A DNA stretch of 64,000 bases, taken from assembly GCA_029980465.1 (NCBI GenBank), contig JARYIJ010000001.1:3111501-3175500 (forward strand), given 5' to 3'. A program made the translations under genes and the position numbers. The DNA is from Pseudolabrys sp. Lineage in GTDB: Bacteria; Pseudomonadota; Alphaproteobacteria; Rhizobiales; Xanthobacteraceae. The notes beneath the pieces were generated by a model. That model saw nothing but the letters and a program-made list of their open reading frames with translations. It had not been told where the DNA came from and did not search any database. This document shows, piece by piece, positions 42,152 through 44,780 of the stretch. Numbering within the stretch: position 1 is the stretch's first letter; every line of letters begins with the position of its first letter.

Positions 42152-42826
42152 ATGTTAGCCCAGGTCCAAGTCCTGCACCGCGTATCCGAATTGCCAGCCC
42201 GCAATTCGGCGCGATCCAACGATTCGTTGTCCGCCATGTTCGACATGACGGGTGCGACAATGATGTTCAGGCGTGACGAAGAAATCTATGGCGAGGGTGA
42301 AAACGCCGAATATCTCTACCGGGTCAAATCCGGCTGCGTCCGGACCTACAAGATCCTTGCCGATGGGCGGCGCCAGATCGGCGCATTTTATCTGCCGGGC
42401 GATATCTTCGGCGTCGACGACGTCAAGACGCACCAGTTTTCGGCCGAGGCCGTCCACCCGACAGCCGTGGCTCTGATCAAGAGGTCGATCATCGAAACGC
42501 GTGTACTGCGCGATACGACGCTGGCCCGGCAGATGCTCAACCTCACCATGTCCGAGTTGCACCGTGCGCAGTCTCACATTCTCCTCCTGATCAAGAGCGC
42601 GCGCGAGCGCGTCGCCTCATTCCTGCTGGAGATGGCGTCCCGCAAGCACGACGACAGCGAGGTCGAACTGCCGATGTCCCGTCAGGACATCGCAGACTAT
42701 CTTGGCCTCACCATCGAGACCGTCTCACGAACCCTGACGCAACTCGAGAACGCCTCGACGATCGCCCTGCCGACATCGCGTCGGATCATTCTCCGCAACC
42801 AGGCCGCGCTGGCGCGGCTCGACTAG
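42152..42826 (+). CDS. fixK: FixK-type CRP/FNR-family regulator
   Basis: A 224-residue regulator of the CRP/FNR superfamily. A cyclic-nucleotide-binding-like beta roll (about 28-125) is followed by a dimer helix and a helix-turn-helix (LPMSRQDIADYLGLTIETVSRTLTQLE, about 172-198) with the E--SR recognition residues of the FNR/FixK class. The N terminus has no cysteine cluster, so it does not sense oxygen directly, and depends on FixLJ. AGAGGAAAG precedes the ATG at 42152; a GTG two codons earlier is also in frame. It is divergent from fixLJ. Confidence 0.92.
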   Translation: MLAQVQVLHRVSELPARNSARSNDSLSAMFDMTGATMMFRRDEEIYGEGENAEYLYRVKSGCVRTYKILADGRRQIGAFYLPGDIFGVDDVKTHQFSAEAVHPTAVALIKRSIIETRVLRDTTLARQMLNLTMSELHRAQSHILLLIKSARERVASFLLEMASRKHDDSEVELPMSRQDIADYLGLTIETVSRTLTQLENASTIALPTSRRIILRNQAALARLD

Positions 42827-42851
42827 TGGTAGGCAAGGGCGAACGGTGGAA

Positions 42852-42865
42852 TTGAGCGATGTCAA
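42852..42865 (+). promoter_or_regulatory. Match to the FixK/FNR binding consensus
   Basis: TTGAGCGATGTCAA is a perfect fit to TTGA-N6-TCAA, the FixK2-type consensus, with the half-sites in true dyad symmetry. It lies 25 bases after the fixK stop codon and 51 bases before the start of a 53-codon ORF. If the protein binds at -41.5, transcription would begin near 42900, leaving a short leader with GGAGAG. Confidence 0.6.
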
Positions 42866-42916
42866 GGCCGCGCGGCATTCTGCCCGGCAAGGTGCTCGTG
42901 GCATTCGGAGAGCGTC

Positions 42917-43078
42917 ATGTCCCTTGAGGTCGGCATTGCGTTGGCTCTGGTGATCGTGCCGTTTGTCATTTTTTGCGCTCGCGTCGGCTATCGCCTGGTC
43001 CGGAGCGGCGGCACGAAGGATCAATCCCCTCAAGGTGCCTCGCAGGGCAAGCGGCACCGGGGGCATTGGGTCATCTAG
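42917..43078 (+). CDS. Small single-helix membrane protein, putative FixK target
   Basis: A 53-residue ORF with GGAGAG four bases before its ATG. It begins MSLEVGIALALVIVPFVIFC, one hydrophobic helix (about 5-24), followed by a basic, polar cytosolic tail with several Lys, Arg, His and Gln and ending GHWVI. I do not recognise the family; it is not obviously CcoQ or CcoS. The FixK-like site upstream and position after fixK suggest expression in low oxygen, perhaps as a small subunit or modulator of a respiratory complex. Neither function nor translation is proved. Confidence 0.5.
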   Translation: MSLEVGIALALVIVPFVIFCARVGYRLVRSGGTKDQSPQGASQGKRHRGHWVI

Positions 43079-43136: not shown

Positions 43137-44780
43137 ATGCGTTCCGCATTTCATGGGGAACGCCGGGAGCATCCGCTGCAAAACGCGTCTTTCGACTATG
43201 TCATTGTCGGCGCCGGGAGCGCCGGCTGTGTTCTCGCCAACCGCTTGAGTGAATCCGGCCGCCATTCCGTGCTTCTTCTGGAGGCAGGGGGGCATGACCG
43301 GCATTTCTGGATTCACGTGCCGCTCGGCTACGGCAAGCTGTTCGCCGACGCGCGGGTCAACTGGCTCTACAAGACCGAGCCGGAGCCGGGGCTCGGCGGC
43401 CGCGAGGTGATCCAGCCGCGCGGCAAGGTGCTGGGCGGCTCGAGTTCGATCAACGGGCTCCTCTATATCCGCGGCCAGGCCGAGGACTTCGACCACTGGC
43501 GCCAGCTCGGCAATGCCGGCTGGTCATTTGCGGACGTGCTGCCGTATTTTCGCAAGGCCGAGGACCAGGTGCGCGGCGAATCCGAGCTGCACGGCGTGGG
43601 CGGGCCGCTGGCGGTGTCGGACGTCGAGCGCCATCCGTTGTGCGAGGCCTTCATCGCGGCGGCGAAGCAGGCCGGCTATCCGCAGACCGCCGACTTCAAC
43701 GGCGCCTCGCAGGAAGGCGCGGGCTATTACCAGCTTACCGCGCGCAACGGGCGGCGCTGCTCGACGGCGCGCGGCTATCTCAAGCCGGCGCGGCGCCGTT
43801 CCAATCTGACCGTGGTGTCGGACGCGCTCGCGACGCGCGTGCTGTTCGAGGGCAGGCGCGCCATCGGCGTCGAATATCGCAAGGACGGCCGGACGCACGT
43901 CGCGCGCGCCGATGACGAGGTGATCCTGTCGGGCGGCGCGTTCAATTCGCCGCAACTGCTGCAATTGTCGGGCGTCGGCCCGGCGGCGCTGTTGCGTTCG
44001 CACGGCATCGACGTCATCGCCGACCTGCCGGGCGTCGGCGAGGATTTGCAGGACCACTACCAGTCGCGCTTCAATTACCGCTGCACGCAGAACCTCACCA
44101 TCAACGACATGATGGCGAGCTGGCCCAAAAGGATGGCGGCGGGCCTCAATTATCTGCTGTTCCGCAAAGGCTTCCTGTCGATCGGCGCGGGTTATGCGGG
44201 CGCCTTCCTCAAGACCGATCCGAGCCTGCCGACGCCGGACGTGCAGATCCATTTCATCCTGTTCACCGCCGAGAGCGTCGGGCAGAAGCTGCACCCGTTC
44301 CCCGGTTTCCTCGCCTCGGTGTGCCAGTTGCGGCCGCAGAGCCGGGGCCATGTCCGCATCAAGTCGGCTGACCCGGCCCCCGCGCCGGCCATCCAGCAGG
44401 GCTACCTGACGGCGCCGTTCGACCGCGACGTCATGGTGGCGGGGCAGAAGCTGCTGCGCACGATCATGGGCCAGCCGGCGATCGCGCCCTACATTGCCGA
44501 GGAGCTCAATCCCGGGCCACGATGCCAGAGCGACGAGGACCTGCTCGCCTTCGCGCGCGACAAGGGCACCACGGTGTTCCACCCGACCAGCACCTGCCGC
44601 ATGGGCCCGGACGACAGGGCCGTGGTCGACGAGACCCTGCGGGTGAAGGGGCTCGATCGCCTGCGGGTGGCGGATGCCTCGATCATGCCGACTCTGGTCT
44701 CCGGCAACACCAACGCCGCCGCCATCATGATCGGCGAGAAGGCCGCCGACATGATCCTGCGCGCCGCACGGCACGGCTGA
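43137..44780 (+). CDS. GMC-family FAD oxidoreductase (choline dehydrogenase-like)
   Basis: A 547-residue flavoprotein oxidising an alcohol to an aldehyde or ketone. The FAD motif DYVIVGAGSAGCVLANRLSE is at 19-38, the GMC signatures GKVLGGSSSINGLLYIRG (about 97-114) and GAFNSPQLLQLSGVG (about 266-280) are intact, and the active-site region FHPTSTCRMG and VSGNTNAAAIMIGEKAA close the protein. The first ~18 residues precede homology, so a slightly later start is possible. No aldehyde dehydrogenase or transporter is beside it, so the alcohol is unknown. Confidence 0.9.
   Translation: MRSAFHGERREHPLQNASFDYVIVGAGSAGCVLANRLSESGRHSVLLLEAGGHDRHFWIHVPLGYGKLFADARVNWLYKTEPEPGLGGREVIQPRGKVLGGSSSINGLLYIRGQAEDFDHWRQLGNAGWSFADVLPYFRKAEDQVRGESELHGVGGPLAVSDVERHPLCEAFIAAAKQAGYPQTADFNGASQEGAGYYQLTARNGRRCSTARGYLKPARRRSNLTVVSDALATRVLFEGRRAIGVEYRKDGRTHVARADDEVILSGGAFNSPQLLQLSGVGPAALLRSHGIDVIADLPGVGEDLQDHYQSRFNYRCTQNLTINDMMASWPKRMAAGLNYLLFRKGFLSIGAGYAGAFLKTDPSLPTPDVQIHFILFTAESVGQKLHPFPGFLASVCQLRPQSRGHVRIKSADPAPAPAIQQGYLTAPFDRDVMVAGQKLLRTIMGQPAIAPYIAEELNPGPRCQSDEDLLAFARDKGTTVFHPTSTCRMGPDDRAVVDETLRVKGLDRLRVADASIMPTLVSGNTNAAAIMIGEKAADMILRAARHG

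Follow-up and report, generated by a model that had tools for sequence, protein, structure and literature searches.

A divergent copy of a candidate FixK-activated single-span microprotein family behind fixK in Pseudolabrys

The short open reading frame (ORF) directly downstream of fixK in Pseudolabrys sp. is probably a genuine gene and a divergent member of an alphaproteobacterial single-span microprotein family whose genes would be activated by FixK/FNR-type regulators and whose products probably serve in trans as accessory factors of low-oxygen respiration; we give this reading as a whole a probability of roughly 0.6. A putative FixK-activated microprotein gene in the window, i.e., the whole 64-kb stretch of DNA that we analysed, is well supported, and the gene, its family, the box, its spacing and the putative -10 element can all be read from the sequence itself.

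The window belongs to a 3.77-Mb genome of two contigs (G000). Its fixK gene (42152..42826, plus strand) encodes a CRP/FNR-type activator with NF050806 FixK as best NCBIfam match (E 6e-71; 238 bits, which is below the model's cut-off of 300 bits) and is divergent from a pair of minus-strand genes that look fixL-like and fixJ-like by eye. Named relatives of this FixK come mostly from Pseudolabrys-type Xanthobacteraceae, with more distant ones in Bradyrhizobium. Behind fixK lie a FixK/FNR-type box, TTGAGCGATGTCAA (42852..42865, plus strand), a gap of 51 nt (42866-42916) with the Shine-Dalgarno sequence GGAGAG (42907..42912, plus strand), and a 53-codon ORF (MSLEVGIALALVIVPFVIFCARVGYRLVRSGGTKDQSPQGASQGKRHRGHWVI; 42917..43078, plus strand), all of them as the initial annotation had placed them. 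That annotation had also proposed a single hydrophobic helix, and the structure prediction agrees with one N-terminal membrane helix at residues 2-30 (whole-protein mean pLDDT 79.9). Next comes a GMC-type oxidoreductase gene (43137..44780, plus strand; identified by eye from its translation), which could be co-transcribed with the ORF.

Taken alone, the box is not significant because the window, in which it is the sole TTGAN6TCAA site, would be expected to hold 0.45 such sites, and 37 of 100 window shuffles contain at least one. It becomes significant by comparison with relatives. At the genome level, 48 TTGAN6TCAA sites compared to 15 for the reversed control pattern suggest that the FixK regulon of G000 is alive, and one of these sites begins 77 nt upstream of a cydA-type start. 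When short hydrophobic ORFs 40-130 nt downstream of all 48 sites were scored with the family profile described below, only the window ORF scored clearly (11.9 bits; next best 3.0 bits). Elsewhere in this genome, three TTGAN6TCAA boxes are found within 1 kb between divergent genes (G000:C1:2966500-2969100), one small heat-shock protein-like and one nitroreductase-like by eye.

The nearest relative of the window FixK (67% identity) is found in genome G042, where the gene order is fixK, box, a 34-aa ORF and ccoN, the latter in the place that the GMC-type gene occupies in the window. The G042 box, TTGACGAGGATCAA, begins 19 bases past the fixK stop and is followed 47 nt on by the 34-codon ORF, which is preceded by AAGGAG and separated from ccoN by 24 nt. 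Used as a blind query, the window ORF matched this 34-aa ORF (E 0.055), which matched the window ORF when searched in return (E 0.045). Across the first 25 codons, the two are identical at 0.60, 0.68 and 0.32 of first, second and third codon positions, respectively, as expected for protein-coding sequence under constraint, and their in-register BLOSUM62 score was reached by none of 100,000 residue shuffles; residues 26-34 are unconserved. The initial annotation had named conservation of ORF and site behind fixK as a check, and G042 has both. The family ORF directly follows fixK only there and in the window among 30 fixK loci (window included), and none was found after fixK in the other 28. FixK-type boxes that follow fixK in some of these 28 loci must serve something else. 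Similarly, the family ORF was absent from 38 of 39 loci examined upstream of ccoN and present only in G042. Small hydrophobic ORFs do precede ccoN in two other loci (L094 and L126), neither of them family-like.

When 199 relatives were searched with the G042 ORF, the short ORFs retrieved were scattered over unrelated places, and a FixK-type box accompanied nearly all of them. A profile built from 23 of these (A3; window ORF left out, threshold E <= 0.01) matched 240 of 391 genomes of the bacterial family. A wider profile matched 63 of 297 genomes in the order and a third one (A7) 20 of 318 in the class, counts that include some implausible low-scoring matches (long frames, without a box). In a phylum sample, A7 matched 19 of 329 genomes, of which 16 are from the same class and three are weak and unconvincing matches to f221. 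The family comprises proteins of 29-72 aa with a single membrane helix, a range and architecture that the window ORF shares, and the consensus MPTETxxVVAxIVxAFxVFAxxLAWADxxTR. Nonsynonymous variation was below synonymous variation (pN < pS) in 26 of 27 pairs from five sets of close relatives. Searches of Pfam, NCBIfam and the PDB gave no significant match, no family match was found in plasmid searches, and a literature search covering titles and the beginnings of abstracts found no paper describing it. These tiny membrane proteins are apparently unnamed and undescribed.

One member is found in genome G447, presumably B. diazoefficiens USDA110, with box and family ORF following a CRP/FNR-type regulator that we take to be FixK1. 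The C-terminal half of that genome's copy L323 (G447:C1:6676483-6676557) is out of frame relative to its relatives, and related genomes carry intact copies. In Bradyrhizobium, a second subfamily of ca. 52-59 aa (M.MSTLLVVTAVCLIFS.FALVLA.TDRSTTRW) is encoded upstream of fixK-type genes, ca. 180-720 nt before the FixK match (L237, L240, L245, L247, L249, L250, L251, L253, L254 and L265); no FixK box lies at the usual distance there.

Boxes had not been used in finding family members. Upstream sequence of 150 nt or more was available for 85 members. TTG-N8-CAA starts 55-110 nt before the start codon in 70 of these 85 (which are related and hence not independent events), 65 of them with the strict TTGA-N6-TCAA, compared to a background of 2.2% and 1.1%, respectively, in random stretches of the same loci. 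Another 60 loci included 44 that score at least 15 bits, 40 of them with a box, and 12 of 20 class loci have one as well. The box usually starts 61-73 nt before the start codon, or ca. 61-81 nt before it by the broader spacing that we take as typical of the family, and the window's 65 nt lie within both ranges. Alignment of 66 promoters on the box revealed an A 24 nt after it in 41 and a T 28 nt after it in 45 of them. With the centre of the box placed at -41.5, these positions become -11 and -7. A box at -41.5 with a -10 element at -12 to -7 is the class II arrangement of FNR-type promoters. In the window, this geometry would put the transcription start at 42900 and a putative -10 element, CAAGGT, at 42888..42893 (plus strand) with A at -11 and T at -7, a match to the family that rests on two bases. 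The class II spacing suggested in the initial annotation appears typical of the family, and its proposal of a FixK-controlled small membrane protein is supported as regards gene and promoter, with the same box-to-ATG spacing recurring at unrelated places across the wider family, often behind other CRP/FNR-type regulator genes. Less of its "perfect" site survives: the TTGA and TCAA arms stand, but the inner six bases are atypical, with a G at box position 5 in only 5 of 73 family boxes (the G at position 10 is shared by 20 of 73). In 53 of 66 family promoters, the second base after the box is a conserved G, which the window also has (42867). Overall, many alphaproteobacteria appear to switch on this family through the same low-oxygen promoter.

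The window ORF carries several hallmarks of the family, whose members begin with M-P/S..E/D and have F16 and F19 (here M1, S2, E4, F16 and F19), and, scored locally against three family profiles that exclude it, reached 11.9, 11.2 and 17.0 bits, which 7, 11 and 0 per 5000 composition-keeping shuffles matched. Genome-wide searches with profiles A3, A6 and A7 do not recover it, and such searches found no other family copy in G000. Instead of the conserved C-terminal end, L-A-W/Y-A-D/E-x-x-T-R, the protein has V-G-Y-R-L-V-R-S-G. Its residues 22 and 26 are Arg, and divergence sets in after residue 25. A frameshift origin of the C-terminal half is unsupported because the +1 frame scores just 1.2 bits. 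Having lost the conserved end (W/Y-A-D..T-R), the window copy may be weakened or decaying. It could be a relic of a cco operon linked to fixK, which it would once have headed in the manner seen in G042, and have drifted since this operon was replaced and the C-terminal motif lost. We consider this a serious alternative because the operon downstream of fixK in G042 is absent beside the window fixK, though a distinctly less probable one than a functional gene. It would account for the position just before ccoN in G042, for a G000 genome whose sole ccoN is of a lower-scoring type and located elsewhere, for the lost motif and atypical box, and for the lack of another family copy in the profile searches of G000. 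It fits less well with 53 codons that have stayed open, with the retention of start codon, Shine-Dalgarno sequence, box spacing and both -10 bases, and with the coding pattern over the first 25 codons. Furthermore, the protein end is variable across the family, and members of 29 aa stop just past the helix without the last part of the conserved end.

The surroundings of the family's genes bear on what a functional microprotein would do. Among 72 proteins flanking 40 family loci, 18 match the Crp/FNR helix-turn-helix and five match COX1, and downstream neighbours assigned by NCBIfam include one hemN and one ccoN. In Bradyrhizobium-type genomes, the gene before the family member tends, as judged by eye, to encode a regulator whose N-terminus bears a cysteine motif, and in five Bradyrhizobium-type loci ccoN lies 431-562 nt downstream. 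Most copies are not adjacent to cco genes, and the genes downstream of them vary by lineage and are often on the opposite strand. The putative FixK regulation, the single helix predicted and the presence of genes like ccoN and hemN nearby point indirectly to a role in low-oxygen respiration, probably as an accessory factor.

A narrower possibility is that the family serves cbb3 oxidase as a dedicated structural subunit comparable to CcoM. The positions relative to ccoN in G042 and in the five Bradyrhizobium-type loci would suit this, as would a weak co-occurrence: ccoN is present in 25 of 33 family-bearing versus 9 of 21 other genomes (p 0.02), with family presence taken from the matches listed in the A3 search, so that genomes without a match are incompletely represented, and with 6 of 60 genomes of borderline family score left out here and for cydA. 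This count treats as ccoN-bearing two genomes with only ccoN fragments as well as G000, whose only ccoN (L111; G000:C1:1992760-1994136) lies far from fixK and scores 624 bits compared to ca. 710-730 in most of the genus. However, no ccoN was detected in 8 of the 33 family-bearing genomes, including five with a completeness of at least 90%, which makes an obligate or dedicated cbb3 subunit unlikely and a general accessory role preferable. The distance of most copies from cco genes, the absence of any PDB chain from the profile matches and the lack of a convincing copy beyond Alphaproteobacteria also speak against such a subunit, which we regard as rather improbable. A cytochrome bd partner was rejected as well: two members are convergent with cydB (by eye), yet the association with cydA is weak (31 of 33 family-bearing versus 15 of 21 other genomes, p 0.045; 25 of 26 versus 10 of 13 among genomes at least 90% complete, p 0.10). 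One genome (G005) has two family copies, with neither ccoN nor cydA detected.

Several known small proteins invite comparison. CcoM is a 36-aa subunit of the Pseudomonas stutzeri cbb3 oxidase (PMC10433244). It resembles the family in size, single helix and a tie to low-oxygen respiration that is probable for the family. Unlike CcoM, the family is not restricted to ccoN-bearing genomes, and we found no sequence relation between them, with no match for profiles A3 and A7 in the PDB up to E 10. The PDB copy searched presumably contains CcoM. CydX, the small subunit of cytochrome bd oxidase, is likewise a small single-span protein and supports its oxidase, but the family has no Pfam match above curated cut-offs and the CydX family is not among the matches listed. 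Moreover, cydX follows cydAB in a single operon, unlike the two family members convergent with cydB. TorE/NapE are also small single-helix proteins, which stabilise respiratory membrane partners and are described as syntenic with genes for NapC/NirT cytochromes and molybdoenzymes (PMC6134056). The family does not show the synteny described there, and TorE/NapE are also not among the Pfam matches listed, none of which exceeds a curated cut-off.

Explanations that dispense with a functional microprotein fare worse. A random ORF beside a random box that, if used, serves the GMC gene is very improbable: TTGAN6TCAA is common enough at random and position 5 of the box is atypical, but the same arrangement in G042, the family-typical spacing, the coding pattern and the profile score led us to reject it on synteny, spacing and coding pattern. 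Least probable is a cis effect on the downstream gene, with the ORF serving as a leader peptide or riboregulator. The mere 24 nt before ccoN in G042 could be cited for it, but the amino acid sequence is conserved even though downstream genes vary by lineage and are often encoded on the opposite strand.

If the microprotein is functional, low oxygen would cause FixLJ to raise FixK levels, and FixK, bound to the box with its centre near -41.5, would recruit RNA polymerase in class II fashion to the -10 element that lies 23-28 nt beyond the box. With the Shine-Dalgarno sequence in a leader of ca. 17 nt, the transcript would be translated into the microprotein. Its single helix would then span the membrane, the acidic N-terminus outside and the basic C-terminus inside, following the positive-inside rule. 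Most likely, the protein would stabilise or otherwise assist the low-oxygen respiratory membrane machinery in trans as a small accessory factor; expression, topology and this respiratory role are what we infer.

Few regulons of rhizobia and phototrophs have been studied as well as those of FixK and FNR, yet this conserved putative target with its own promoter seemingly lacks a curated family model. FixK2 and FnrL regulons share the box type of the family promoters and, in the available text of three studies (PMC6710368, PMC4263372, PMC4999443), include small hypothetical genes among their targets; that text does not name the family. For R. sphaeroides, 13 FnrL binding sites are reported to lie outside upstream regions of annotated genes (PMC4263372). 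We see an even chance that, in many alphaproteobacteria, a mostly free-standing microprotein gene is a core FixK/FNR target encoding a general membrane factor for the low-oxygen switch, and that seemingly targetless FixK boxes may often drive it. If expressed, the microprotein would be a low-oxygen membrane factor amenable to study in Bradyrhizobium and other model organisms, and it would readily explain why some FNR-type sites precede no apparent gene.
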